DNA of 64,000 nucleotides from Terasakiella brassicae (GTDB lineage Bacteria; Pseudomonadota; Alphaproteobacteria; Rhodospirillales; Terasakiellaceae): NCBI RefSeq assembly GCF_014641495.1, contig NZ_BMHV01000011.1:62001-126000 (forward strand), read 5' to 3'. The notes beneath the pieces are model-generated. The model made no database searches and was not told the DNA's origin. It saw only the letters and a program-made list of their open reading frames with translations. Shown one piece after another: positions 43,584 to 58,031 of the stretch. Position 1 is the stretch's first letter; each line of letters starts with the position of its first letter. Both the position numbers and the translations under genes were made by a program.

Positions 43584-43859
43584 CCGTTTTTCACAAAATT
43601 ATTTGTGTGCAAATAAAACAAATAACATAATCAACTTGTTTTAATTTTAGTTTTCTTTAATTCGAAGGCGGCTCGTTCATTTTTCTTTTTTTTAATTGCT
43701 ACTGCAAATGAAGTTTTTTTAGGGTTGTTTTGTCGAAGATTAATAAAAAATGCCCTGCTCTTCTTTAAAATAACTGCGTGCGCAGATTTTTGAGAGGTAT
43801 GAGGGGCAGGAAATGAAGTGAGCTGGAAAAAATATTTCCCAAGGATTATATTTAACTCT

Positions 43860-44129
43860 ATGAAAAAGTTATATATTTGTACCAATAAAGCTGTTGCCTT
43901 GGGTCGTCCGTCTTGTGGGCTGCGTGGGAGCGAAAAAATAATGGCGGCCTTGCAAGAGGAAGTGACACAGCGTTCCATTGCCATTGAATTAGAGGCAATT
44001 ACCTGTTTGGGGCAGTGCAATGAGGGTCCCAGCATGCGGATTGCCGGTGGTAATTTCTATTTGGGCGGCGATGCAGATAAAGTTTCAGAGATTGCCGACT
44101 GGCTGGAGCGGGAATTGAAACAGACTTAA
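43860..44129 (+). CDS. thioredoxin-like [2Fe-2S] ferredoxin domain protein
   Basis: An 89-residue protein with four cysteines in the pattern of the thioredoxin-like [2Fe-2S] family: Cys in ICTNKAV, Cys in RPSCGLRG, and a pair in CLGQCNEGP. This group is related to the NuoE ferredoxin domain. It is a likely low-potential electron carrier, partner unknown. ATG 43860 suits the family length; GTG 43818 with an AGGA site would add 14 residues and is possible. Its stop overlaps the stop of the convergent CBS-GGDEF-EAL gene by four bases. Confidence 0.85.
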   Translation: MKKLYICTNKAVALGRPSCGLRGSEKIMAALQEEVTQRSIAIELEAITCLGQCNEGPSMRIAGGNFYLGGDADKVSEIADWLERELKQT

Positions 44130-46639
44130 TTTTTATCAGGCCAGCGTAAGCCGTTTTTTAAATGGCGTTCAAATGTTGCGGCCGGTTCTGGGCGTGACAA
44201 AAGATAACCTTGCAGCAATGAACACCCGCCTTGACTGAGGAAGTCAGCTTGAATTTGTTCTTCCACACCTTCTGCGATGCTATGCATGCCGAGGTTTTCG
44301 CTCATGGCAATCATGGTTGAGATCAGTTGGCGGTTGCCTTCTTCCTGAAACATGCCGCGAATAAAGCTTTGATCGATTTTCAGGTGATCAATCGGCAGGT
44401 TTCGCAAGTACCCCAGATTGGAATAACCAGTTCCAAAATCATCAATTGCAATACGTACGCCGATTTCTTTGAGGGCAAAGAGATTAATCTTCACCTGTTC
44501 GGGTTCGTCAATAAAGGATCCTTCGGTAATTTCGATTTCGAGACATCGACCGGATAGGTCAAATTGTTCCAGTAATTTTTCAACAAATAACGGAAAGGTA
44601 TTGTCTTTAATCTGTTCGGGCGCAATATTGACCGCAACGGTGAGAGCCGGATATCCCTTATCCTGCCATTCCCGAATTTGGCGACACGCCTTTGTCAGGA
44701 CCCATTCGCCGATTTTGGAGATAATGCCGATTTCCTCGGCAATGGGGATAAATTCTGCCGGACCGATCTTACCTATTTTTTCGTTGTGCCAGCGCAGCAG
44801 TGCTTCGGCAGCAACAATGGTGCCATCACCAGCGGCGGCTTGAGGTTGGAAGTAAAGTTCGAATTCATCATGTGCGATTGCGCCGCGCAATGCGGTTTCG
44901 ATTTCCAGTTGGCGCAAGCTTTGATCTGTAAAGGATGCATTGAACAGGTTGAATGTACTGCGCCCGGCATCTTTTGAACGATACATGGCGACATCTGCAT
45001 TTTTAATAATGGTTTCCGCGTCTTCGCCATCATCCGGGAATACACTGATGCCCAGACTGGCAGTGACAAACAGGTTTTGCTGATCCACGACAAACGGGTC
45101 GGAAAATGCTTCAACAATGCGTTGGGCGACCTTTGTTACCTCATCAACGCTTTCAATATCGGGAAAGAGCAGGATAAATTCATCCCCGCCCATTCGGGCA
45201 ACGGTATCTTCATCGCGTGTGCAATGTTTCAGGCGTTCTGCGGCCTCAACCAACAGTGCATCGCCTGTGTTGTGGCCCAAGGTATCGTTGATCTTTTTGA
45301 AATGGTCCAGATCGACGAACATAATCGCAAGGCGTTCATGGTGGCGTTTGGAACGGGCAACCGCCATATTCAGGCGGTCAGAAAATAGTCGACGGTTTGG
45401 CAGTTTGGTCAGTTCATCGAAATAGGCCAGTCTACGAATTTGGTTTTCCTGATTTTTACGTTCGGAAATATCGCAGAAAATACCCGCATACTGGTAAATG
45501 TCACCGGCATCGTTGCGAATGGCGGTGATGGTCAGCCATTCCGGGTAGACTTCCCCGTTTTTTCGCCGGTTCCAGATTTCACCTTGCCAATAGCCATCAA
45601 TTTGAAGTTGTTGCCACATCTCTGTATAATAATTTTCTTCATGTCGGCCGGATTTGAGGAGGGCCGGCGTCTGGCCCACCGCTTCATCGCTGCTGTATCC
45701 TGTCACATGGGTAAAGGTCGGATTGACATAATCGATTTTGCCTTGCGAGTTGACGATAATAATGCCGTCCAGCGAGGCTTCGATGATCTTATGGGCAAGG
45801 TGAAGGCTGTTTTGCGATGCGCGCAAGGCTTGGGAGCGTTCTTCCAAAATAGAATTGATACGCCGGACGTATTCAAATTGCAAACTGGATAAAATACCGG
45901 AAAAACTGATCAAGCCGATGATATTCTCGTTGTCGTCGGCAACACCAAGGTGACGAAAACCTGTTGAAACCAGCATATTGCGGGCTTCCAATAAATTCGC
46001 GTCCTTGGAAATGGTTTTAAGCGGACGCGAGGCCGCCTGCCCGATTGTTTCCGGGAAGCTGCGTTGAGACAGAAAACGCGTGACATCTTTTTCAGTGACA
46101 ATGCCGTAGCTATTGTCGTTAAACAGAACACACACAGCGGCTTGCGGTGCGTTCTGAATGATTTTTAAGGCTTCGCTGAAACTGACGTGTTCAGGGGCGA
46201 TGGGTGCGGCAACCGTGATGGTTTGTTCCACGGTTTTGACTGTCAGATAATATTCTTCCCCATGTTTTAAAATGACATCCGTTTGCGTAATGATGCCACA
46301 AGGGGTGTTGTCTTTGCTCAGGACCAGCAAATGACGAACTTTTTCTTCCTTAAACCGGACCGCAGCCGCGCCAATGGAAATGTCTTCGCGGATGGATTTA
46401 ACCGGTGCGTTCATCAGGTCGCGTACCGGGCGGTCAAAAACGGCCAGATTGGAAACATCAAGACGCAAGCTGTCACGCTCTGTCCAAATTCCGATAGGTA
46501 CGCCCTTCTCTTCGACAAGGATAGAACTGACCCCGGCGTTTTGCATGGCTGCGGCGCATTTTGCAATCGTGTCATCCGGTTTACAGGTGAGCAAAGTCCG
46601 GTTTACGATACTGCTAATCTCTTCGTTTATGGGGTTCAT
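44126..46639 (-). CDS. CBS-CBS-PAS-GGDEF-EAL cyclic di-GMP protein
   Basis: An 837-residue soluble protein. It has two tandem CBS pairs (about residues 5-120 and 130-262), a short coiled region, a PAS domain (about 285-395, with GYSSDEAVGQTP), a GGDEF domain (about 400-565) and an EAL domain (about 575-830). GGDEF keeps its signature in ARMGGDEFILLF and the inhibitory I-site RDED just upstream. EAL keeps AEALLRW, ITEGSF, DDFGTGYSN, LKID and SIAEGVEE. Both activities are plausible. The CBS pairs could sense adenylate nucleotides and the PAS a redox or ligand cue, coupling energy state to c-di-GMP (inference). Confidence 0.93.
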   Translation of the reverse strand: MNPINEEISSIVNRTLLTCKPDDTIAKCAAAMQNAGVSSILVEEKGVPIGIWTERDSLRLDVSNLAVFDRPVRDLMNAPVKSIREDISIGAAAVRFKEEKVRHLLVLSKDNTPCGIITQTDVILKHGEEYYLTVKTVEQTITVAAPIAPEHVSFSEALKIIQNAPQAAVCVLFNDNSYGIVTEKDVTRFLSQRSFPETIGQAASRPLKTISKDANLLEARNMLVSTGFRHLGVADDNENIIGLISFSGILSSLQFEYVRRINSILEERSQALRASQNSLHLAHKIIEASLDGIIIVNSQGKIDYVNPTFTHVTGYSSDEAVGQTPALLKSGRHEENYYTEMWQQLQIDGYWQGEIWNRRKNGEVYPEWLTITAIRNDAGDIYQYAGIFCDISERKNQENQIRRLAYFDELTKLPNRRLFSDRLNMAVARSKRHHERLAIMFVDLDHFKKINDTLGHNTGDALLVEAAERLKHCTRDEDTVARMGGDEFILLFPDIESVDEVTKVAQRIVEAFSDPFVVDQQNLFVTASLGISVFPDDGEDAETIIKNADVAMYRSKDAGRSTFNLFNASFTDQSLRQLEIETALRGAIAHDEFELYFQPQAAAGDGTIVAAEALLRWHNEKIGKIGPAEFIPIAEEIGIISKIGEWVLTKACRQIREWQDKGYPALTVAVNIAPEQIKDNTFPLFVEKLLEQFDLSGRCLEIEITEGSFIDEPEQVKINLFALKEIGVRIAIDDFGTGYSNLGYLRNLPIDHLKIDQSFIRGMFQEEGNRQLISTMIAMSENLGMHSIAEGVEEQIQADFLSQGGCSLLQGYLLSRPEPAATFERHLKNGLRWPDKN

Positions 46640-46741
46640 GTTCAGAGGCGTTCACATTTGTTATATTATATTCGGCATTAAACTATCACGTTCGGTAAGT
46701 AAAAATACAGTTACCTTTACGTATTCGACCGAAAGTATGAA

Positions 46742-47335
46742 TTATTCAATTAAACAGACTTCATCGAATGCAGGTCTTGGGCCACGATCATAAAGACCTG
46801 CTGTGTCACCATAGCCAATATTGCATAGGAAGTTAGATTTCAAGCTGGAATCCTTAAAGAAAACACTATCAAGTTTTTCAGAATCAAAACCGGACATTGG
46901 CCCGCAATCCAGCCCTAAAGTACGACATGCTATGATTAAATAAGCGCCTTGTAAGGTGCAATTCCTGATTGCGGTTTCTTCTGCCAGTTCAGGGTTTTGA
47001 TCGAACATGTCGGCGGCACCGGGAAAACTGGGAAACAGGCGTGGCATGTTGGTGAAAAAACGCAGATCTGTCGCGATAATGGCTGTGACGGGGGCCGCCA
47101 TTGTTTTGGCAATATTGCCTTCGGATAAACAGCTTTTTAGTTTTTCTTTGGCTTCAGGGCTTTTAATAAATGTAATACGTGCGGGACAGCAATTCATACT
47201 TGTTGGCCCCCAGCGTGCCAAATCCCAAACCTGATTGAGAAGATCGTCGCTTACTTCTTTGTCTTGCCAAAGATTGTGGGTCCGGGCTTGCAAAAAAAGC
47301 TGGTCTAAGGCTTCTTGTGGTAAAGGTGCTGACAT
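46742..47335 (-). CDS. nitroreductase family protein, RutE-like (malonic semialdehyde reductase type)
   Basis: A 197-residue FMN-dependent nitroreductase-fold enzyme. The N-terminal FLQARTHNLWQDKEVSD and the block WGPTSMNCCPARITFI match RutE/HadB-type proteins. In E. coli RutE reduces malonic semialdehyde to 3-hydroxypropionate in uracil breakdown, but no other rut genes are here, so the substrate remains open. It lies 100 bases upstream of the CBS-GGDEF-EAL gene on the same strand and diverges from a cytochrome. Confidence 0.85.
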   Translation of the reverse strand: MSAPLPQEALDQLFLQARTHNLWQDKEVSDDLLNQVWDLARWGPTSMNCCPARITFIKSPEAKEKLKSCLSEGNIAKTMAAPVTAIIATDLRFFTNMPRLFPSFPGAADMFDQNPELAEETAIRNCTLQGAYLIIACRTLGLDCGPMSGFDSEKLDSVFFKDSSLKSNFLCNIGYGDTAGLYDRGPRPAFDEVCLIE

Positions 47336-47499
47336 TCTATTTCCCTATTCGATCCAAAATTATTTTTGTTATTCAAATAAGATAGGCCGAGTTTTCTTAT
47401 CCTTCAATAGATTAGGTTGTTTTTTTAAGATTAGATTTATCTTGTCTTATTAGGGTTTTCGAATTTAAAATCACGACACGTTTAAAGTCGGAGGATAAA

Positions 47500-48027
47500 A
47501 TGAAACGTTTGTTGATGATGGGAGCGTGCTGTCTCTTTGTGTTCGGGACATCTTCGGCTTATGGGGATGATCGTAATGTCATTTTGGTCCCGCAAGAAGT
47601 GAAGTCGATTTTTCTGGAAGAAATGCGTACGCACCTTGATAACCTGAATGAAATCACTCAGGCCCTGTCTGCGGGGGATTTCAAAACGGCGGCTTATATC
47701 GCGGAAAATAAAATGGGGTTTGGTCATTCTGTACGTGAGGTGATGCAGCAACAGGGGCGAACCGATGAAGAAATCGAAGAAATGTTGATGAAATTGCGAG
47801 AAAGTAAATCACGCATTGATCATCCAGGACGCGGGATGGGTCGTTTTATGCCGGATGAAGTCCGTGAAATGGGACGCGTTTTCCATGATGCGGCGGCTCA
47901 TTTTGCAAATATTGCCAAAAATGTCGCGACACCGCCAACGACGGATGATTATCAACGCGTCTTTACGGCACTTAGTGAAATAATTGATGTGTGTAGTGCC
48001 TGTCATTCATCTTATCGTGTGGAATAA
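47500..48027 (+). CDS. cytochrome c'-like monohaem protein
   Basis: A 175-residue exported protein: signal peptide to about residue 22 (SSAYGDD), a helical body rich in Met/Glu, and one haem site CSACH near the very C-terminus (residues 165-169). This plan is that of class II cytochromes c' (four-helix bundle with C-terminal CxxCH), proteins linked to NO binding or electron buffering. Compared with classical c', the helices carry more Met and Asp/Glu. The ribosome site GGAGGA precedes ATG 47500. A methyltransferase gene starts three bases later. Confidence 0.82.
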   Translation: MKRLLMMGACCLFVFGTSSAYGDDRNVILVPQEVKSIFLEEMRTHLDNLNEITQALSAGDFKTAAYIAENKMGFGHSVREVMQQQGRTDEEIEEMLMKLRESKSRIDHPGRGMGRFMPDEVREMGRVFHDAAAHFANIAKNVATPPTTDDYQRVFTALSEIIDVCSACHSSYRVE

Positions 48028-48030
48028 ATT

Positions 48031-48720
48031 ATGATGCAAACCAAAAAGAACGCGGATGTTTTAAAAGAAAATATTCAATTAAAAGGAAAAAACGTTCTGG
48101 ATGTCGGCAGTGGCGAAGGTCACCTCAGTCGTATGATGGCCAAGCAAGGCGCGCATGTTATCGGGATTGAATGTTCCCCCCGTCAGATGAAAAAGGCGTT
48201 GTCTTATGACTGTGTTCGTGATGAGAAATTCATCGATGCCGTTGGGCAGGACTTACCGTTTGAAGATGCCAGCATGGATGTGGTCGTCTTTTTCAACAGC
48301 TTGCACCATATCCCGGTTGATGAACAGTTCAACGCCTTAAAAGAAGCCGTGCGTGTCTTGCGCCCCGGTGGTTTTGTCTATGTGTCCGAACCAATGGCAG
48401 AAGGCCCGCATTTTGAACTGCTTAAACCCATTGATGATGAAACCTATGTGCGTGCGAAGGCTTATGAAGCCTTGAATCGATACGAGGAATTGGGGCTTAA
48501 ATGGGTGAAAGAGGAAACCTACAACCATCCGGTTCGTCGTCAAAATTTTGAAGAATTACGTGATAAGTTGACAGGGCCGAACCCGGAACGCGATGCAATT
48601 TTCGAACAACAGGATGCTGAACTTCGCGCAGCCTTTGCCCATTATGGCGTTCAAAAAGAAGATGGTTGTACCTATTTCGATCAGCCGACCCGTATGAACT
48701 TGCTGCAAAAACCGGCTTAA
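48031..48720 (+). CDS. class I SAM-dependent methyltransferase
   Basis: A 229-residue methyltransferase with motif I VLDVGSGEGHLSRMMA, acidic loop IGIECSPRQMKK, VVFFNSLHHIP and LRPGGFVYVSEP. The substrate is unknown. It is three bases downstream of the cytochrome c'-like gene, so the two are probably translated from one mRNA. A bidirectional terminator at 48719-48753 ends it. Confidence 0.88.
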   Translation: MMQTKKNADVLKENIQLKGKNVLDVGSGEGHLSRMMAKQGAHVIGIECSPRQMKKALSYDCVRDEKFIDAVGQDLPFEDASMDVVVFFNSLHHIPVDEQFNALKEAVRVLRPGGFVYVSEPMAEGPHFELLKPIDDETYVRAKAYEALNRYEELGLKWVKEETYNHPVRRQNFEELRDKLTGPNPERDAIFEQQDAELRAAFAHYGVQKEDGCTYFDQPTRMNLLQKPA

Positions 48721-48753
48721 AAAAAGAGGGGCTAAAAGCCCCTCTCCTTCTTT
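48719..48753. terminator. bidirectional terminator between methyltransferase and KorB genes
   Basis: AGAGGGGCT (48725-48733) pairs with AGCCCCTCT (48737-48745) around AAA, with an A run on one side (a T run for the minus strand) and a T-rich tail on the other. Confidence 0.9.
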
Positions 48754-48756
48754 GTT

Positions 48757-49809
48757 TTAGCGGAAGCTGTTGTTGATCCCGGCCAAGGCGTGATTGCCGG
48801 GGCACAGGGTTTTTTCGTCCAGTGTATTAAGCGGTGTTTCCGTTGTTCCTAGAAAATCGTGCATATCGCGCAAGGTTGGGTCGCAATAGAGCAAGCCTGT
48901 CAGGATTTCACCTTTGATGCGATGTTGTTCAATCGCGTTAATAGCGGCAAAACGATCTGTCGGATCATAGCCGTCTTTTCCTTTGTGCAGGCGGATCAGG
49001 GATCCGTCATGCAGACAGATATCCTTGCTTTCGCCTTCTGCGTATTTTGTGGTGATTTCTTCACGCGAGGGTACGAAATCGGCAATATTACCGGCTTCGA
49101 CATGTTCACGCACATAATCATAGCTGCGTGTGGATGTCGCATGGTTGTTGAAGGTTACACAAGGCGACAACACGTCGATAAAGGCAAAACCTTCATGGCA
49201 TAGGGCCGCTTTTAACAAGGGGACCAACTGATCCTTATCACCGGAAAAACTGCGTGCAACAAAAGTTGCCCCCAATTGCAGGGCCATTGTCGGCAGGTCA
49301 ATGGCAGACCAAAGGATTTCTTCCCCTTTTTTGGTATGTGATCCTTTGTCTGCGGTGGCAGCTGTTTGCCCCTTTGTCAGGCCGTACACGCCGTTATTCG
49401 CAACGATATAGGTCATATCAAGGCGGCGGCGTACCACATGGGCAAATTGCCCCATACCGATGGAAGCCGTATCCCCATCACCGGACATGCCGACATATTT
49501 TAAACTGCGGTTTGCCATGCTGGCCCCGGTTGCAACAGACGGCATGCGTCCATGAACCGTGTTGAAACCATGCGATTTACCAAGGAAATAAGTCGGTGCC
49601 TTGGACGAACAGCCAATGCCGGACAGCTTGGCAACCTTGTGTGGTTCCAGCGACAATTCAAAACAAGCCTGAACAAGGGCCGCGCCAACCGCATCATGGC
49701 CGCAACCGGCGCATAAGGTGGACAAGGCCCCTTCGTAATCGCGATATGTCAGACCAAGATCGTTTTTTGCAAGTTTTGGGTGGTGAAATTTGGATTTCAA
49801 GTAACTCAT
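48757..49809 (-). CDS. korB: 2-oxoacid:ferredoxin oxidoreductase, beta subunit
   Basis: A 350-residue TPP-binding subunit. It has CAGCGHDAVGAAL at the N-terminus, GMSGDGDTASIGMGQFAHVVR for TPP-Mg binding and ANNGVYGLTKGQ. It pairs with the alpha subunit to decarboxylate a 2-oxoacid (probably 2-oxoglutarate) to acyl-CoA while reducing a low-potential acceptor. ATG 49809 was chosen for the GAGGG site; the gap to the alpha stop is four bases. No separate delta ferredoxin gene is here; Fe-S clusters are on the upstream GltD-like protein. Confidence 0.92.
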   Translation of the reverse strand: MSYLKSKFHHPKLAKNDLGLTYRDYEGALSTLCAGCGHDAVGAALVQACFELSLEPHKVAKLSGIGCSSKAPTYFLGKSHGFNTVHGRMPSVATGASMANRSLKYVGMSGDGDTASIGMGQFAHVVRRRLDMTYIVANNGVYGLTKGQTAATADKGSHTKKGEEILWSAIDLPTMALQLGATFVARSFSGDKDQLVPLLKAALCHEGFAFIDVLSPCVTFNNHATSTRSYDYVREHVEAGNIADFVPSREEITTKYAEGESKDICLHDGSLIRLHKGKDGYDPTDRFAAINAIEQHRIKGEILTGLLYCDPTLRDMHDFLGTTETPLNTLDEKTLCPGNHALAGINNSFR

Positions 49810-49813
49810 GTTC

Positions 49814-51649
49814 TTACCCTCTTGCCACTTTTGAAGCCGGTGCAACGGCGATATGATCGAGAATGGTTGTGCTGATGAAATCGGCCGTAATCGGTAAACC
49901 GTCATAGTTACAAACTTTGATCAGTTTTGCCGGGTCAATGTCCAGTTCATTCATCAACAGGGTCCGCATTTGGGCGTCGCGGTTTTGTTCAACAACAAAG
50001 ACCTGATCGTGTTGTTCGATAAAATCTTCCACAGCCTTGGCAAAGGGGAACGCCTTGAGGCGCATCCCGTCGACGTTTTGGCCTTGTGCGCGCAGAAGAT
50101 CAAACGTTTCATCCATCGCAGCATTCGTTGTGCCGAAATAAACCACACCGATTTTGCTGCCTTTGTTTTGGCTGTGCATTTCCGGTTGTGGCAGAATTTC
50201 GGCAGCAGTACGGAACTTTTTATTTAAACGTTCCATATTGCGCACGTAATCTTCGCCACGTTCTGTGTAAGCGGCATATTCGTTGCGTGACGTCCCACGT
50301 GTGAAATAAATGCCTTTTTCCGGGTGTGTGCCGGGATAGGTACGATAACAAATGCCATCACCGTCCACGTCCAGATAACGTCCAAATTCTTCAACTTCTT
50401 CAAGTTGTTGGGCATTTAAGACCTTGCCACGATCATACGTGCGGCTGTCGTCCCAGCTGAGTTCGTCACTCATATGATCGTTCATACCGAGATCAAGATC
50501 CGTCATCACCATGATCGGCGTTTGAATACGTTCGGCATAATCAAACGCATCCGCTGTCATATGGAAGCATTCCGTTGGTGTGGATGGGAAGATCAGGACC
50601 TGTTTCGTATCTCCATGAGAGGCATAAGCACAAGCAAGAATGTCAGATTGTTGTGTCCGTGTCGGCATCCCGGTTGACGGGCCTGCGCGTTGCACATCAA
50701 TTAAAACAACCGGAATTTCGGCAAAATAAGCAAGGCCGAGAAATTCCGTCATCAAGGAGATACCCGGACCGGACGTTGCGGTAAAGGAACGTGCCCCGTT
50801 CCACCCCCCACCAATGGCGATACCGATGGCGGCAAGTTCGTCTTCGGCCTGCATAACAGCAAAGTTCTTTTTGCCCGAGGCCGGGTCAATACGCAGACGA
50901 TTACAGTATTTTTCATAATTTTCCACAACCGATGTGGAGGGAGTGATCGGATACCATCCTGCCACGGTTGCCCCGCCGTAAACAGCACCCAAACCAGCGG
51001 CTGTGTTACCGTCAATCAGAATGCGGTTGCCGACTTTGTCTGATTTTTGAACGCGAATGCTCAGCGGGCAGTTGAAATTTGTTTTGGCATATTGATAGCC
51101 GAGTTCTAACGCATGAACGTTCGGCGAAATCAGCTTTTCCTTACCTTTGAACTGATCGGCGATTAAACCTTTCAGCACATCGAAATCCATATCAAGCAAA
51201 GCTGCCAGCGCACCGACATAGATGACGTTTTTAAACAGTTGGCGTTGACGCGGGTCGTTATATTCACGCAGGCAGATGGCTGAGATGGGCATCCCCAGAA
51301 ACGTAATATCTTTGCGCATCAATTGCGGGTCGATTTCCTTGGTTGAGTCATAGAGGAAATAACCGCCTGCCTCGACACTTTGTACATCATCCACCATGCT
51401 TTGCGCGTTCATGGCAACAACGATGTCGGCCCCACCGGCGCGGCGCCCCAGATAGCCTTTTTCACTGACGCGCACGTCATACCATGTCGGCATACCCTGA
51501 ATGTTTGATGGGAAGACGTTGCGTGGGCTTACCGGAACGCCCATGCGGAAAATTGCTTTGGCGAACATGTTGTTGGCACTGGCAGAGCCGGTTCCGTTTG
51601 TGTTGGCAAAGCGAATGACGAATTCGTTGACTGAATTAATGGTTTTCAT
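49814..51649 (-). CDS. korA: 2-oxoacid:ferredoxin oxidoreductase, gamma-alpha fused subunit
   Basis: A 611-residue subunit. The N-terminal part is the gamma domain (FANTNGTGSASANNMFAKAIF, residues ~15-190), and the rest is the alpha domain that binds the TPP pyrophosphate (AAGLGAVYGGATVAGWYPITPS, FTATSGPGISLMTEFLGLAYF). This gamma-alpha fusion is the form used for 2-oxoglutarate or pyruvate in aerobic and microaerobic alphaproteobacteria. The acceptor specificity (2-oxoglutarate versus pyruvate) is not decided by sequence. Two bases separate it from the upstream flavoprotein gene. Confidence 0.92.
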   Translation of the reverse strand: MKTINSVNEFVIRFANTNGTGSASANNMFAKAIFRMGVPVSPRNVFPSNIQGMPTWYDVRVSEKGYLGRRAGGADIVVAMNAQSMVDDVQSVEAGGYFLYDSTKEIDPQLMRKDITFLGMPISAICLREYNDPRQRQLFKNVIYVGALAALLDMDFDVLKGLIADQFKGKEKLISPNVHALELGYQYAKTNFNCPLSIRVQKSDKVGNRILIDGNTAAGLGAVYGGATVAGWYPITPSTSVVENYEKYCNRLRIDPASGKKNFAVMQAEDELAAIGIAIGGGWNGARSFTATSGPGISLMTEFLGLAYFAEIPVVLIDVQRAGPSTGMPTRTQQSDILACAYASHGDTKQVLIFPSTPTECFHMTADAFDYAERIQTPIMVMTDLDLGMNDHMSDELSWDDSRTYDRGKVLNAQQLEEVEEFGRYLDVDGDGICYRTYPGTHPEKGIYFTRGTSRNEYAAYTERGEDYVRNMERLNKKFRTAAEILPQPEMHSQNKGSKIGVVYFGTTNAAMDETFDLLRAQGQNVDGMRLKAFPFAKAVEDFIEQHDQVFVVEQNRDAQMRTLLMNELDIDPAKLIKVCNYDGLPITADFISTTILDHIAVAPASKVARG

Positions 51650-51651
51650 GT

Positions 51652-53427
51652 TTATGCCACCTCAATCTGTGTCGCTTTGAAAAGGAATTTCTGCATATCC
51701 CATGCCCCTGTCGGACATCGTTCGGCACATAGGCCGCAATGCAGACATACATCTTCGTCCTTAACCATAATTTTGCGGCTTTTCAGCTCGCCGGAAACAT
51801 AAATATCGCGGTCATTTCCAATCGCCGGGACACGTAAGCGCGCACGCAAGTCGTCTTCGTCACCATTGGGGATAAAGTTGATACAGTCCATCGGGCAGAT
51901 ATCTTCACAGGCAACGCATTCAATGCAGCGTTCCCCCAAAAAGACGGTCTGCACATCACAACTTAGGCATCGGGCGGCTTCGCTTAAGGCGAGTTTTTCA
52001 TCAAATCCGAGTTCGACTTCGGCATCGATATTTGCCAGTGCCTCTTCCAAATTCATCACCGGCACCGTGTTGCGCGGATCATTGGAAACAGCACTTTGAT
52101 AAGACCATTCGTGAATGCCCATTTTCTGTGAAGTCAGACTGTATTCCCCGACCGGAACGGCATTGACGTCTTTTTCCTTATTGAGAAAACGATCAATGGA
52201 CCCGGCTGCGATATGGCCGTGGGCAACGGCGGTAATGATGTTTTCCGGACCAAAGGCCGCATCCCCCCCAAAGAAGACTTTCTCATGGCTGGATTGCAGG
52301 GTGTCTTTGTTCAGAACAGGCATGCCCCAGTCATCAAAATCAATACCGAGGTTGCGTTCAATCCACGGGAAGCTGGCATCTTGACCAATGGCAACCAGAA
52401 CAAGATCACATTCGACCAGAACAGGCGCTTCCCCTGTTGAAATCAGTTTACGTTTGCCTTTTTCCCAATGTGTTTTCACACGGTCAAATTCAACGCCGAT
52501 AAATTTCCCATCTTCGACCACATACCGCAAAGGGGTGTGGTTGGGGATAATTTCGACATTTTCCGCCATTGCATCTTCGCGTTCCCATTCTGAAGATTTC
52601 ATTTCGTCATAGGAAGATCGCACAATGGCTTTGACCTCTTGTGCGCCCAATCGGCGTGCTGTGCGTGTACAGTCCATTGCCGTGTTACCACCGCCCAGAA
52701 CAACGACCCGTTTCGGTGCTTTTTTGATATGACCGAATGTAACGCCCGCCAGCCAGTTAATGCCGATTTCGACATGATCACCGGCTTCTTCCAATCCATC
52801 CATTTTTAACGGACGGCCGCTTGGGGCGCCGGTGCCGACAAAGATAGCGTCAAAACCTTCATCCATCACGGCTTTCATAGAGGTAACATCGCCCTTAAAA
52901 CGACGTTCAACCCCCATGTCCAGAACCACATCGACCTCGCTGTCCAATGTTGTCAAAGGCAGACGGAAAGACGGGATTTGGGTGCGCATCATGCCGCCAG
53001 CCTGGGCATCACGTTCAAAAATCGTACATTCGTATCCCAAGGGCATCAGGTCGCGCGCAACCGTCAGGGATGCCGGTCCCCCGCCAATTAAGGCAATTTT
53101 TTTGCCATTTTTCTTGGTCGGGATGATGGGAAGACGGTCTTTGATCTCTTCCTTATTATCGGCAGCAACCCGTTTAAGGCGACAGATCGCCACGGGTTTT
53201 TCCTCGACGCGCTGACGTCTACAGGCTGGTTCACACGGACGGTCACAGACACGACCCAAGACACCAGGGAACACGTTTGCTTCCCAGTTGACCATGTAGG
53301 AGTCCGTATAACGGCGTGCTAAAATAAGGCGAATGTATTCCGGGACCGGCGTATGTGCCGGACAGGCATACTGGCAATCCACCACTTTATGAAAGTGGGA
53401 CGGATCAGATGTGTTGGTGGGTTTCAC
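51652..53427 (-). CDS. GltD-like NAD(P)-dependent flavoprotein with ferredoxin domains
   Basis: A 591-residue electron-transfer protein. The N-terminal Fer4-type domain has cysteines in CQYACPAHTPVPEYI and VCDRPCEPACRR. Two Rossmann folds follow: FAD site ALIGGGPASLTVARDL and NAD(P) site VVLGGGNTAMDCTRTARRLGA. The C-terminus has two 4Fe-4S motifs, CIECVACEDICPMDC and CLHCGLCAERCPTG. This is the plan of GltD/NfnB-like oxidoreductases, here extended by the 2x[4Fe-4S] module. Placed first in the operon, it is likely to pass electrons from Kor to NAD(P) (inference). Start is GTG 53427. Confidence 0.92.
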   Translation of the reverse strand: MKPTNTSDPSHFHKVVDCQYACPAHTPVPEYIRLILARRYTDSYMVNWEANVFPGVLGRVCDRPCEPACRRQRVEEKPVAICRLKRVAADNKEEIKDRLPIIPTKKNGKKIALIGGGPASLTVARDLMPLGYECTIFERDAQAGGMMRTQIPSFRLPLTTLDSEVDVVLDMGVERRFKGDVTSMKAVMDEGFDAIFVGTGAPSGRPLKMDGLEEAGDHVEIGINWLAGVTFGHIKKAPKRVVVLGGGNTAMDCTRTARRLGAQEVKAIVRSSYDEMKSSEWEREDAMAENVEIIPNHTPLRYVVEDGKFIGVEFDRVKTHWEKGKRKLISTGEAPVLVECDLVLVAIGQDASFPWIERNLGIDFDDWGMPVLNKDTLQSSHEKVFFGGDAAFGPENIITAVAHGHIAAGSIDRFLNKEKDVNAVPVGEYSLTSQKMGIHEWSYQSAVSNDPRNTVPVMNLEEALANIDAEVELGFDEKLALSEAARCLSCDVQTVFLGERCIECVACEDICPMDCINFIPNGDEDDLRARLRVPAIGNDRDIYVSGELKSRKIMVKDEDVCLHCGLCAERCPTGAWDMQKFLFKATQIEVA

Positions 53428-53719
53428 GGTACACCTATCTCACAAACTGTCATAAAAGAGTCAAAACGACTATGACTTCTTTACGGGCATTCTGCCTAAT
53501 CTTCAAGCATGACTTTGTAAATTATTGTCGTTTTTTTGGGCATGTTTATAATAATAATTCGCAAATTAGATGATTGAAATGTAAATATTTTTTATTTAAC
53601 TGGTCTTACCAGTCTATGAAAAAAATAAGCTGGACCTAACTTTATAAATGTTCTAAGTTTTTTCGTAGCAGACCTAAAATTCCTTGGCACATACTTTCTT
53701 TTTTGAGGAGAAAAAGAAG
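53428..53719. promoter_or_regulatory. divergent promoter region of kor and DUF523 genes with a GntR-type operator candidate
   Basis: At 53599-53613 lies ACTGGT-CTT-ACCAGT, a perfect inverted repeat with a three-base spacer. TGGTnnnACCA is the core of FadR/PdhR-type GntR operators. It is about 172 bases upstream of the kor operon start and 106 bases upstream of the DUF523 gene, so it could control either. No GntR gene is in this window. The remaining sequence is AT-rich. Confidence 0.45.
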
Positions 53720-54673
53720 ATGGAACAGCTATTGAAAATTGGGGTATCCGCCTGCCTGTTGGGACAAGAGGTTCGATTTAACGGCGGTCATTGCAATCAT
53801 CGTTTCTTAACGCATTCTTTTTCTAAATATGCCGTGTTTGAACCGGTTTGCCCAGAAGTGGCAATCGGCATGGGTATTCCACGCAAATCGGTACGTCTGG
53901 AACGTGACGATGCCGACAGCAATATGGTGCGTATGATTGAACCCAAAAGCGGCCATGATTACACCGATGATATGGTTGCCTACAGTGCTGAAAAAGCGGC
54001 TGAGTTAAATGATTTAGACGGGTTTGTTTTTAAGAAAAATTCGCCAAGTTGTGGTGTGTTTCGTGTGAAAATCTATCAAAATGACCAACCGAGTGAACGT
54101 CGGGGAATCGGGTTGTTTGCTCAGGCTGTAATGGAACGCTATCCCGAATTACCAGTGGAAGAAGAAGGTCGCTTGTCTGATCCCTTCTTGCGGGAAAATT
54201 TTGTGGAACGGGTCTTTGCTTATCGCCGTGTCAAAGATTTATTTGATCGTAAATGGAGCCGCCGTGATGTCATTGAATTTCAAGCCCGCGAAAAACTGCT
54301 GTTGATGGCACATGCGCCGCATAAGGCAAAATTGCTGGGACAATTGGTTGGGCGGATTAAACAGTCTCAGCGTGATGATTTTGCAACGGCTTATATTCAG
54401 GCTTATATGGATTGTATGAATACAAACCCCAGTAAAGGCCGACATACCAATGCAATGATGCATATGGCGGGGTATTTGAAAAACAAGTTGAGCCAATCCG
54501 GTCGGGCGGAACTGGCATCTGTTATTTCTGATTATCGCAATGGCTATGTTCCGATGACTGTGCCGATGGCCTTGATGCAACATATGATCCGGCGTTTGGA
54601 AGAAGGCTATCTGGTCAATCAGACTTATCTGGCCCCTCACCCACGTGACCTTGCCTTACGCAATCATGTTTAA
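53720..54673 (+). CDS. DUF523 and DUF1722 domain protein (YbgA-like)
   Basis: A 317-residue protein with N-terminal DUF523 (IGVSACLLGQEVRFNGGH, NSPSCGVFRVK with conserved Cys residues) and C-terminal DUF1722 (FQAREKLLLMAHAPHKAKLLG, GRHTNAMMHMAGYLKNKLS). The E. coli relative YbgA lies near the photolyase gene, but the function is not established. ATG 53720 is preceded by GAGGAG and is preferred over the frame's first codon at 53684. The glutathione peroxidase gene begins 13 bases after its stop, so they are likely co-transcribed. Confidence 0.9.
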   Translation: MEQLLKIGVSACLLGQEVRFNGGHCNHRFLTHSFSKYAVFEPVCPEVAIGMGIPRKSVRLERDDADSNMVRMIEPKSGHDYTDDMVAYSAEKAAELNDLDGFVFKKNSPSCGVFRVKIYQNDQPSERRGIGLFAQAVMERYPELPVEEEGRLSDPFLRENFVERVFAYRRVKDLFDRKWSRRDVIEFQAREKLLLMAHAPHKAKLLGQLVGRIKQSQRDDFATAYIQAYMDCMNTNPSKGRHTNAMMHMAGYLKNKLSQSGRAELASVISDYRNGYVPMTVPMALMQHMIRRLEEGYLVNQTYLAPHPRDLALRNHV

Positions 54674-54686
54674 GGAAGGGGCTGTG

Positions 54687-55232
54687 ATGAAACGCTTATT
54701 TTTACTGATCTCTTTGATCGTGGGATTTACAATGACACAGGCCAAAGCCGAGACAACTGCGTTTGATTTTACCTTCGAAGATATTGATGGCAAAGACCTG
54801 CCCTTGTCTAAATTTACAGGCAAGACGGTAATGGTGGTCAATACGGCTTCTTATTGCGGTTTTACCAAACAGTATGATGCTTTGCAGGCTGTCTGGGCAA
54901 AATATCGGGACCGTGGATTGGTGGTGCTGGGGGTGCCGTCCAACGATTTTGGGCAACAGGAACCGGGAACGGAAAAAGAAATTAAGGAATTCTGCGAAGT
55001 GAATTTCAATATTGATTTTCCGATGACGCAAAAAGAAGTCGTGAGTGGTAAAAAGGCCCATCCATTTTATCAATGGGCGCGCAAGGAACTGGGCTTTGTT
55101 GCTGCCCCCAAATGGAATTTTCACAAATATCTGATTGATGGAAATGGCAGGCTCGTGGACTGGTTTGCCACAACAACAAAACCGAATTCCCCCAAGGTGA
55201 TTGCGGCCATTGAAAAGAGTTTGGGGCGCTAA
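54687..55232 (+). CDS. periplasmic glutathione peroxidase-like protein
   Basis: A 181-residue thiol peroxidase of the glutathione peroxidase family, with a signal peptide (TMTQAKAE) that sends it to the periplasm. The peroxidatic cysteine is in NTASYCGFTKQY (Cys form, not selenocysteine), the conserved Gln is in FGQQEPG and the Trp/Asn in KWNFHKYLID. It reduces hydroperoxides, using thioredoxin-like or glutathione donors. ATG 54687 is chosen after the AAGGAAGG site, giving the signal peptide at the N-terminus. The stop lies inside a GC-rich hairpin at 55223-55240. Confidence 0.92.
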   Translation: MKRLFLLISLIVGFTMTQAKAETTAFDFTFEDIDGKDLPLSKFTGKTVMVVNTASYCGFTKQYDALQAVWAKYRDRGLVVLGVPSNDFGQQEPGTEKEIKEFCEVNFNIDFPMTQKEVVSGKKAHPFYQWARKELGFVAAPKWNFHKYLIDGNGRLVDWFATTTKPNSPKVIAAIEKSLGR

Positions 55233-55250
55233 AACGCCCCTTCTCTCTCT
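55223..55250. terminator. terminator between convergent glutathione peroxidase and cytochrome genes
   Basis: GGGGCG (55223-55228) pairs with CGCCCC (55235-55240) around CTAAAA, followed by TTCTCTCTCT; it overlaps the gpx stop codon. Of medium strength because the T run is broken. Confidence 0.6.
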
Positions 55251-55251
55251 G

Positions 55252-55845
55252 CTATTTCATACCGCTGATGTATGTGGCGAGGGCTTGAATTTCCATTTCG
55301 GTCAGCTTGGAGGCAATGGAGTGCATGACCGCGTTATCATTGGTTCGATTGCGGTTATGGAATTCGGTAAGCTGATCGGCAAGGTAACGTTTGTGTTGAC
55401 CTGCCAGTCGCGGTAATTTTTGTGTCCCTTTACCCTCGTCCCCATGACAGGTTTTACACGCAGTAACGCCTGAATATTTGTTTCCGTTCATGTAAAGATA
55501 TTGACCAACGGCGGCAAATTCTTCATCGCGCACGCGGTGGGAAAGCGGCGGTTTGGCTGCAAAATATTTGCCAAGTGCGACCATTTCATCCGGTGTCAGG
55601 TCTTGTGCCATTTCATTCATGGTGCCTGTACGTCGCCCGGCTTGAAAATCAGCCAGTTGTTTGGCGATATATTCTTCATGTTGGGCGGCAAGTCGGGGAT
55701 AAATCGCACTGGAACTTTCCCCTTCTGTACCGTGGCACAAATGGCATTTTTCTTCGACGATTTCGATGGCACGATCCATATCGGCGCCAAAGGCCGATTG
55801 TGTACCCATAAAAAGGGTGGAAATCAAAAAGGCACGTTTAAACAT
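55252..55845 (-). CDS. periplasmic dihaem cytochrome c4
   Basis: A 197-residue exported protein with two class I cytochrome domains: CHLCH in the first and CKTCH in the second. The paired PRLAAQHEEYIAKQL and PRLAGQHKRYLADQL segments show internal duplication, as in cytochrome c4. Methionines in MNEMAQ and AVMHSI are likely axial ligands. It carries electrons to cbb3-type or other terminal oxidases (family knowledge). It is 80 bases downstream of the SUMF1-like gene on the same strand. Confidence 0.92.
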   Translation of the reverse strand: MFKRAFLISTLFMGTQSAFGADMDRAIEIVEEKCHLCHGTEGESSSAIYPRLAAQHEEYIAKQLADFQAGRRTGTMNEMAQDLTPDEMVALGKYFAAKPPLSHRVRDEEFAAVGQYLYMNGNKYSGVTACKTCHGDEGKGTQKLPRLAGQHKRYLADQLTEFHNRNRTNDNAVMHSIASKLTEMEIQALATYISGMK

Positions 55846-55925
55846 ATGTTGTTTATCCCCTGTGAAGCGATTTTGTTGTTTATAGCAGAAAATAAAGGGT
55901 TTTGGGATGGGGAAAACGTATGAGT

Positions 55926-57431
55926 TTATGGATCTAACCTTGTAATTTCCTGATCATCCAGTTCACGCAAAACCCGAAATCCGGTATCGTCGCTACGCCG
56001 TGTCGGGAAATCGCGCCATCGGTTGGATGTGCGGATTTCTTTGGGCGGGAAGCTCCAGCCACCGCCGCGAATAACCCGTTTGCCGCATCCGGCGGGATTT
56101 TGATAGGCGGTGCCGTCCAGTCCGATCCCTTCAAATTGATCGTTCCAGCAATCTTCCACCCATTCAAATACATTGCCGCTGGTATCGAACAGGCCGAACT
56201 GATTGGGGGCAAATCGTCCGACTGGTGCGGTTTTTTCACTATCCCAAATACTGCCACACCCTGCGCAATTGGCGAGACCTTTACCCAGCTTATCCCCCCA
56301 AGGATAAGGTGTCGTGGTTCCTGCGCGCGATATATATTCCCATTCAGCATCGCTGGGTAAGCGGTAGGTATGTCCGGTTTTTTCACTGAGCCAGCGGGTA
56401 TAGGCTTTGGCCTCTTCCCATGCGACATTGATGACGGGACGCCGTCCCCTGCCCCATGCGGAATCTTCCGGGGGGACGCACTTCGTTTCCCGACAATATC
56501 GGGCGTATTCGGCAAAGGTAATTTCAAAGACCCCAATGGCAAAAGGTTTGGTTAAGGTGACGGGTTGGATCGGTTTTTCGTCAAAGTCACCATTGGCGTC
56601 GCCGCGCAGATAACTGCCCGGTTTGATCAGGCGCAAAAGTGGCCCGCTGCTGCCATCGACAAAATGATCACGTAAGGTCTTTTTACGCATTTCAGGTTTG
56701 AAACCAGATACCAATAGCTTTTCTGGTTGATCATTGCGGATATAATCGCTTTTAAATTCAATAGCCTGTATGGATTTTAAATCCAGTTGCAGGGTGTTTC
56801 CGTTTAAATCGGTGAGTGTAAAATCTGTTTCAGCATGTAAGCCGCTCAGCCAGGATTGATCGTTTCGTCGGCGCAAACGAATTTTAAGAACTTCTTCATC
56901 CTCGGAATAAGTCAGGTCCAGTAGGTCGGCCTCTGTGCTGGGTAAAATAGCGGTTTGTCCATTCTGATCAACCCGGAACAAGGTGGCTGTATGATAGCCT
57001 AAAAAGACATCGCCATTGTTCATTTCGATAATATCAGGGGTGGCTTCTAACGGTTTTCTTTGGGCGCGTTCTTTGCGGCTGTGTTCAAATTCAATCAATT
57101 GAATTTCGGCTTTGTCCAAGGGAAGATCGGGACCCAAGGCACGGCTGGTGACAAATGTGTTTTCTTTTATCTGCCCGCTGAAGACTTCGCCATCAATTGT
57201 CGTGACGCGATCTTTTGCCTGTGGTGTGGGCGCAAAGAAAATATGTGTTAGTCTATCGCGTGTCAGCGTTATGTCGCCATAGTCGGTGGCAAGTTGAATT
57301 GTTTTTTGTGCGATAATTCCGTTATGGAATTCGCCGCGTCGTGTCTGAATAACATCGGCCCAAACAGTGTGGGCGAATGTGATGGCGGATAGAACAGAAG
57401 CTGCAATCAGGCAACGTTTTTTTGTTTTCAT
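55926..57431 (-). CDS. secreted SUMF1-fold protein with repeated N-terminal modules
   Basis: A 501-residue exported protein (signal peptide ends near residue 25, HTVWAD). Residues ~265-490 form a formylglycine-generating-enzyme/SUMF1 fold (GVFEITFAEYARYCRE, YRLPSDAEWEYISRAG, GNVFEWVEDCWN, RVIRGGGW, TGFRVLRE). The catalytic Cys pair of true FGE after RGGGW is absent (SFPPKEIRTSNRW instead), so formylglycine formation is unlikely. The N-terminal half has four similar beta modules of ~40 residues (starting about 28, 77, 135 and 203), each with a [ND]G[DE] turn and ending in an LxxIxF strand. Function unknown; it may bind a surface or extracellular partner. Confidence 0.8.
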   Translation of the reverse strand: MKTKKRCLIAASVLSAITFAHTVWADVIQTRRGEFHNGIIAQKTIQLATDYGDITLTRDRLTHIFFAPTPQAKDRVTTIDGEVFSGQIKENTFVTSRALGPDLPLDKAEIQLIEFEHSRKERAQRKPLEATPDIIEMNNGDVFLGYHTATLFRVDQNGQTAILPSTEADLLDLTYSEDEEVLKIRLRRRNDQSWLSGLHAETDFTLTDLNGNTLQLDLKSIQAIEFKSDYIRNDQPEKLLVSGFKPEMRKKTLRDHFVDGSSGPLLRLIKPGSYLRGDANGDFDEKPIQPVTLTKPFAIGVFEITFAEYARYCRETKCVPPEDSAWGRGRRPVINVAWEEAKAYTRWLSEKTGHTYRLPSDAEWEYISRAGTTTPYPWGDKLGKGLANCAGCGSIWDSEKTAPVGRFAPNQFGLFDTSGNVFEWVEDCWNDQFEGIGLDGTAYQNPAGCGKRVIRGGGWSFPPKEIRTSNRWRDFPTRRSDDTGFRVLRELDDQEITRLDP

Positions 57432-57446
57432 TGGCCTTCCTCCCCA

Positions 57447-57472
57447 CGTGTATAATACGCATTAATTACACG
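57447..57472 (-). promoter_or_regulatory. inverted repeat with a -10-like element upstream of the SUMF1-like gene
   Basis: CGTGTA (57447-57452) is mirrored by TACACG (57467-57472), 16-41 bases upstream of the ATG. The minus strand inside the repeat contains TATTAT, a fair -10 box. It looks like an operator over a promoter, with no assigned regulator. Confidence 0.35.
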
Positions 57473-57497
57473 AGTGGAAAGTGTGCTTTTCTAGAAA

Positions 57498-57532
57498 ACA
57501 AAACGGCCTTGCACCGGATGATACAAGGCCAT
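57498..57532 (-). terminator. terminator after the bacterioferritin pair
   Basis: GGCCTTG (57505-57511) pairs with CAAGGCC (57524-57530); on the minus strand the stem is followed by GTTTTGTTTTC. It closes the bfr transcript before the SUMF1-like gene. Confidence 0.85.
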
Positions 57533-57560
57533 TTAGGAATGTCCGTATAAATCCGCAGTT

Positions 57561-58031
57561 TTAAGAGGATTTGGACTGAATGTAGTTTTTGAGACCCATT
57601 TTATCGATCAGGCCAAGCTGTTTTTCCAGCCAATAGGTGTGATCGTCTTCTGTGTCTTTCAGCAGGTCAATCAGCATTTGACGAGAAACGTAATCTTGTT
57701 CCTTCTCACATAGGGCAATAACCTTTTTCAGCTCTTTACCGACCATGAGTTCATATTCAAGATCGTTTTGCAGCATGGTGGGAACGTCTTTGCCGATTTT
57801 CAGCGCATCGCGTGCGGCAACGTCCGGTGTACCTTCCAAAAACAGGATACGCTCCACAATACGGGCTGCATGTTCCAGTTCTTCTTCCTGTTCATGTTTC
57901 AGGCGTTCGAACAATTCACTCATGCCCCAATCGTCATACATGCGCGAATGGATGAAATATTGATCCGCAGCACTCATTTCGTGGGCAAGAAGGCCGTTCA
58001 GAGCCTCAATAACCTTTTTGTTGCCTTTCAT
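57561..58031 (-). CDS. bfr: bacterioferritin subunit, ferroxidase-active, lacking the haem methionine
   Basis: A 156-residue ferritin-like four-helix protein that oxidises and stores iron as a 24-mer. By alignment in my head to E. coli Bfr, all ferroxidase ligands are kept (Glu18 in AHEMS, Glu51 and His54 in EELEHA, Glu94 in LEYEL, Glu127 and His130 in TEDDH), with Tyr25 in DQYF. The haem ligand Met52 is replaced by Leu. It is 17 bases downstream of a second bfr, so the two subunits are made together. Confidence 0.93.
   Translation of the reverse strand: MKGNKKVIEALNGLLAHEMSAADQYFIHSRMYDDWGMSELFERLKHEQEEELEHAARIVERILFLEGTPDVAARDALKIGKDVPTMLQNDLEYELMVGKELKKVIALCEKEQDYVSRQMLIDLLKDTEDDHTYWLEKQLGLIDKMGLKNYIQSKSS

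Follow-up and report, generated by a model that had tools for sequence, protein, structure and literature searches.

A korC-korA-korB operon of Terasakiella brassicae encoding a probable 2-oxoacid:NADP+ oxidoreductase

The 2-oxoglutarate:NADP+ oxidoreductase (KGOR) of Azoarcus evansii, reportedly described by Ebenau-Jehle, Boll and Fuchs in 2003 (J Bacteriol 185:6119), is said to feed benzoyl-CoA reductase. In a later paper, a subunit of 2-oxoglutarate:NADP+ oxidoreductase is placed in a clade of the GltD/NfnB family with Ebenau-Jehle et al. 2003 cited (PMC10134865), and a reference title gives Aromatoleum as the genus named to take in Azoarcus evansii (PMC9765128). KorAB of Thauera aromatica is described as the electron source of benzoyl-CoA reductase (PMC9973337).

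The window, which is the whole stretch of 64,000 nucleotides analysed (Terasakiella brassicae, contig NZ_BMHV01000011.1), carries three adjacent genes which very probably make one enzyme:

korC, 51652..53427 (start 53427), minus strand: GltD/NfnB-like flavoprotein of 591 aa with FAD and NAD(P) folds
korA, 49814..51649, minus strand: 2-oxoacid:acceptor oxidoreductase subunit of 611 aa with gamma and alpha parts fused
korB, 48757..49809, minus strand: beta subunit of 350 aa with a TPP domain

By analogy with the architecture of the A. evansii KGOR, the operon is judged to belong to an already described kind of enzyme: KorA (gamma-alpha) and KorB with TPP, CoA and carboxylate residues were found, with a GltD/NfnB-like FAD/NAD(P) subunit encoded alongside. 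The likeness, in that both are 2-oxoacid oxidoreductases which bring along a GltD/NfnB-type NADP+ subunit, is one of description and not of sequence; unlike A. evansii, the host here gave no benzoyl-CoA reductase family matches. Thauera aromatica KorAB and the Magnetococcus and Sulfolobus OFORs have alpha and beta subunits of this kind too, but those use free ferredoxin and here korC is in the operon. Phenylglyoxylate:NAD+ oxidoreductase (Pad) is likewise a 2-oxoacid oxidoreductase with its own NAD-reducing subunit, but the trio gives only weak matches to the Pad alpha and beta models, far under cut-off.

The three genes are separated by 2 bases (korC/korA) and 4 bases (korA/korB), all on the minus strand, just as the first-pass annotation had described their spacing. 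The start codon of korC is GTG, and homologous stretches begin there too (M in 16/16 aligned rows). The longest korB reading frame begins at 49905 inside korA and would overlap it; the start of korB is the ATG at 49809, where the homologues begin, including the annotated gene of Aromatoleum aromaticum EbN1. Among the 80 named-genome loci of the KorC locus set (the best 80 of 597 stretches), korA follows korC in 79 and korB then follows in 75. The contig ends before korB in four of the others (L035, L054, L067, L078), and one (L064) has korC with neither korA nor korB. Closer to the window, korA comes after korC in all 23 loci L093-L096 and L101-L119, L093 being this genome. Isolates of Alpha-, Beta- and Gammaproteobacteria and of Bacteroidota are among the carriers, with classes taken from record titles; the labels of a Bacillota MAG and of Frankia sp. 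RB7 were judged doubtful. Since the order korC-korA-korB recurs across these four groups, the trio is more than a chance arrangement.

KorA joins a gamma domain (PF01558) and an alpha domain (PF01855) in one protein and scores above the curated TIGR03710 threshold (577.3 against 482.75 bits); KorB stays below the NCBIfam beta-subunit cut-offs (TIGR02177, 204.2 against 261.9 bits). A Fer4 match was obtained in neither, confirming that the alpha and beta subunits have no ferredoxin part of their own. Four cysteines of KorB (Cys33, 36, 67 and 217) are invariant in 15/15 rows, of which the 15th is the genome's other KorB, and would hold one [4Fe-4S]. The closest solved relative of KorA is 6n2n/6n2o, which we take to be the Magnetococcus 2-oxoglutarate enzyme, and those of KorB are 5b46 and 6n2n. 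The Sulfolobus OFORs likewise have just one [4Fe-4S] and lack an internal ferredoxin domain (PMC5020499). KorA retains the YPITP motif (residues 233-237), its Arg321 aligns with StOFOR Arg344, and Lys70, Leu144 and Lys146 of KorB align with StOFOR Lys49, Leu123 and Lys125. By this alignment the TPP, CoA and carboxylate residues are present in KorA and KorB, with the roles described for StOFOR, Lys125 being for CoA (PMC5020499). The position of StOFOR Asp468 is occupied by Thr453 in KorA. That aspartate is required for 2-oxoglutarate in StOFOR1, and the 2-oxoglutarate-specific enzyme of Hydrogenobacter has Leu there (PMC5020499). With Lys70 kept and Asp468 exchanged for Thr453 the substrate residues are mixed, and the sequence alone therefore leaves the substrate undecided.

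KorC consists of a Fer4_20 domain, a Pyr_redox_2 domain and a C-terminal 4Fe-4S dicluster, and its solved relatives, NfnI and GltD included, are flavoprotein modules that handle NADPH. The Fer4_20 domain and FAD/NAD(P) module are shared with NfnL/NfnB and GltD, whereas the C-terminal dicluster is an addition in KorC. Sixteen candidate cluster-ligand cysteines, in a first set (18, 22, 61, 65, 69, 82, 487, 490) and a C-terminal set (501, 504, 507, 511, 561, 564, 567, 571), are invariant in 16/16 sequences, as are Cys253 and Cys515 beyond these. The eight C-terminal cysteines would fit a 2[4Fe-4S] ferredoxin, and by the pattern of cysteines KorC probably holds four [4Fe-4S] clusters, the C-terminal pair and two N-terminal ones. 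Of the first-pass description of the flavoprotein, the FAD and NAD(P) folds and the extra Fe-S domains stood; its two 4Fe-4S clusters did not, four being the better count with 16 cysteines.

The N-terminal GltD-type domain of KorC is without the first CxxC of its first cluster, and a similar segment, EAARCLSC (residues 483-490), sits after the flavin module. In a phmmer alignment this segment falls on the N-terminal one of NfnI, a match of 9.1 bits that is weak by itself. Used as a profile, the segment matched after the flavin module in 4/4 KorC-like proteins (L097-L100) and gave a weak match (domain E 0.14) at the N terminus of L091, the presumed GltD of the genome. We infer that the segment completes the first N-terminal cluster in KorC; in GltD and NfnI a similar RCxxC segment is N-terminal. 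Two residues close to the second N-terminal cluster differ from NfnI: Gly is replaced by Cys82 in KorC, and Glu by Lys85. The NfnI Glu at the Lys85 position, or Gln in DPD, is a cluster ligand. In KorC an invariant V-R-S follows the second Rossmann strand, and acidic residues are lacking there; this suggests a preference for NADP over NAD. The AlphaFold model of KorC was poor (mean pLDDT 61.0) and nothing was drawn from it.

KorC was also considered as the GltD subunit of glutamate synthase and rejected. The GltD models score far below cut-off (TIGR01318, 200.7 against 482.95 bits), korC adjoins korA, and a stronger Fer4_20 match is found elsewhere in the genome, namely L091, which is 28% identical to KorC and presumably the true GltD. 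No GltB-sized frame was found among the open reading frames listed at 44000-58000. The first-pass annotation had left room for KorC matching a known GltD partner; no such partner emerged in that stretch, and KorC travels with korAB. Four genomes belonging to the same order encode KorC-like proteins of about 35% identity (L097-L100), and the short flanks examined showed neither a KorA nor a KorB homologue.

The trio is thus read as a probable 2-oxoacid:NADP+ oxidoreductase, most likely a 2-oxoglutarate:NADP+ oxidoreductase (CoA-acylating). KorAB would bind TPP and decarboxylate the 2-oxoacid, the acyl group would be taken up by CoA, and the electrons would exit via the single [4Fe-4S] of KorB. 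They would then run through the ferredoxin-like 2[4Fe-4S] domain at the C terminus of KorC and on through its two N-terminal clusters and FAD, with NADP+ reduced in the end. Complex formation, this electron path, 2-oxoglutarate as substrate, NADP+ over NAD+ and the oxidative direction are what we infer from the predicted proteins. The likely use would be an extra route of 2-oxoglutarate oxidation giving NADPH instead of NADH. A self-contained unit linking a 2-oxoacid to NAD(P), as the first-pass annotation had proposed, appears well supported by the architecture, the gene association and the known precedent, and its addition that electrons might flow in reverse is unlikely on thermodynamic grounds.

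That the same complex acts on another substrate (pyruvate, branched-chain or aryl), and so belongs to amino-acid or aromatic catabolism and not beside the TCA cycle, is an unlikely reading. In its favour, the family models matched are generic 2-oxoacid models and StOFOR Asp468 is not retained. On plasmid 2 of EbN1 the trio stands behind FAD-oxidoreductase, acyl-CoA dehydrogenase and CBS-domain genes, and the nearness of acyl-CoA dehydrogenase genes speaks for this reading. Besides the trio, the genome is equipped with sucA and with another, conventional KorAB pair (L003:2-2172; 30% and 40% identical). Against another substrate stand the best solved KorA match, 6n2n, a 2-oxoglutarate enzyme, and a separate long enzyme in the genome (L008, named by eye) that looks indolepyruvate-type. 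The linkage with sucAB in one locus also argues against it: in L120, from a genome of about 1.4 Mb (G326), sucA-sucB-korC-korA-korB are consecutive on one strand and a gap of 145 bases separates sucB from korC, sucA being assigned by family and sucB named by eye. This linkage is a hint of 2-oxoglutarate, found in 1/44 genomes and possibly due to chance (a few per cent by a rough estimate). A relative of G326, G107, has the trio without sucAB alongside. The best 80 of 597 stretches, L090 and L121-L127, many of them cut short by contig ends, likewise showed no homologue of either sucA or sucB. The 2-oxoglutarate reading is retained as the preferred one.

The first-pass annotation had further suggested that the unit could replace 2-oxoglutarate dehydrogenase, and had called for a look at sucAB/lpd elsewhere in the genome. 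Here sucA was found, and on the same strand, 1.8 kb from the matched sucA domain, lies a disulphide reductase (C2:129186-130529) that is presumably the E3. Replacement is accordingly not supported: sucA is present in 43/44 genomes with close KorC, the sole miss (G235) being an 88% complete genome, and in 55/60 relatives, KorC carriers or not. In this genome the trio sits beside 2-oxoglutarate dehydrogenase. A stand-in for that enzyme at low oxygen is compatible with the preferred explanation, has an identical net reaction except for the nicotinamide, and would suit the oxygen sensitivity of many OFORs; it is considered quite improbable in view of the near-universal sucA just given and of FNR-type motifs, which occur in 1/114 upstream stretches and are missing from the 350 bases ahead of korC in the window.

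It is quite improbable, if compatible with the preferred explanation, that the main task of the unit is to reduce ferredoxin, or to pass electrons between it and NADPH, and so to feed low-potential reductases. The probable four clusters of KorC and its kinship to NfnI are in favour, and so is the precedent in aromatic ring reduction proposed for Azoarcus evansii. The genome, for its part, has no match to PF00148 (nitrogenase family) or PF01869 (BcrAD/BadFG), the families covered by the searches; the same searches were positive in 4/14 and 10/14 control genomes, respectively. For this genome, a role in supplying nitrogenase or benzoyl-CoA reductase with electrons was therefore rejected. Nor was there a match to G6PD_N (PF00479) of glucose-6-phosphate dehydrogenase, found in 9/14 control genomes, which suggests that NADPH from 2-oxoglutarate could matter; the search for NADPH sources consisted of G6PD_N. 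An enzyme kind first described for anaerobic aromatic degradation is here found beside 2-oxoglutarate dehydrogenase and without BcrAD/BadFG, nitrogenase or G6PD matches, which raises the question of whether the TCA cycle conceals a source of NADPH of general importance. If so, the ferredoxin-dependent annotation of such operons, for example in EbN1, would mislead metabolic models. In open-licence papers no account was found of the three-gene form outside aromatic degradation; within open-licence papers there was likewise none of its spread among organisms with 2-oxoglutarate dehydrogenase.

The distribution of the trio is patchy. KorC was matched at 1e-50 in 23 of 60 relatives, with at least 60% identity in only four (this genome, G000, and G001, G005 and G006); the remaining 19 have only GltD-like proteins of 30-38% identity. 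Close KorC (1e-150) is found in 41/385 genomes of the class, this genome included and two as partial stretches. Within the genus 3/6 genomes searched carry the trio, which is thus dispensable. The plasmid of Aromatoleum aromaticum EbN1 has the same trio with 56.8% (KorC) and 61.2% (KorA) identity. An unrooted FastTree tree of 33 concatenated KorA-B-C sets (one run, hand-chosen loci) is split with support 1.000 into one side with the window clade, L016/L019/L120/L121, Bacteroidota and Gammaproteobacteria, and another with Bradyrhizobium-like, betaproteobacterial and other sets. In the concatenated tree (0.886) and with KorA alone (0.978), Bacteroidota plus Gammaproteobacteria form the sister group of the window clade, but the KorC-only tree joins that clade to L016/L019/L120/L121 instead (0.884). 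L124, from the order of the window, falls across the split from it and groups with L062 and L068 of the Betaproteobacteria (0.994; KorA 0.987; KorC 0.694). This placement, together with the patchy presence, speaks for spread of the trio by horizontal transfer.

Upstream of korC lies one further feature:

ACTGGTNNNACCAGT palindrome, 53599..53613, strand not assigned: upstream of korC, possible GntR-family operator

The sequence at 53599-53613, ACTGGTCTTACCAGT, is the only exact ACTGGTNNNACCAGT match in the genome; since the reversed pattern, run as a control, likewise matched once per strand, the rarity itself is no evidence. The pattern resembles FadR/PdhR-type (GntR-family) operators, and the palindrome is a possible candidate for such an operator. 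Its core, TGGTNNNACCA, precedes korC by 184, 176 and 120 bases in the window and both operon-bearing congeners, retained although much of the surrounding upstream region aligns poorly, and is absent upstream of korC in L010 and L124. Nine sites were counted in 114 upstream stretches against 0.51 expected by shuffling, representing only 4 distinct loci, since the stretches include repeated copies (this genome four times, each congener twice, plus L115). From this pattern the palindrome appears to be a trait of this genus, not of the operon generally. The divergent gene at 53684-54673 (plus strand), with 2-thiouracil desulfurase and DUF1722 domains, is near korC in one congener and 1.6 kb off in the other, where the site is still near korC; the site thus goes with korC.

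A joint proposal is regarded as rather improbable: that the TCA cycle of oxygen-respiring bacteria has an NADPH-making branch, spread by horizontal transfer and working in parallel with 2-oxoglutarate dehydrogenase, that its four-cluster flavoprotein may split electrons between NADP+ and ferredoxin, and that a GntR-type switch sensing acyl-CoA or 2-oxoacid would control it.

Neighbour clustering in the best 80 of 597 stretches plus L090 gave no generally shared partner beyond the trio, and the operon stands in quite different gene neighbourhoods across lineages (L017, L018, L033 and others in L010-L089). A lineage-specific neighbour, a CBS-domain protein named by eye, comes after korB in 8 loci of that same sample (best 80 of 597 stretches plus L090). 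In the window, a frame at 44126-46639 (minus strand), about 2 kb downstream of korB, has CBS, GGDEF and EAL-type regions by eye and is near the operon in both congeners. At 43818-44129 (plus strand), a short protein with C-x11-C ... C-x3-C looks by eye like a thioredoxin-fold [2Fe-2S] ferredoxin.
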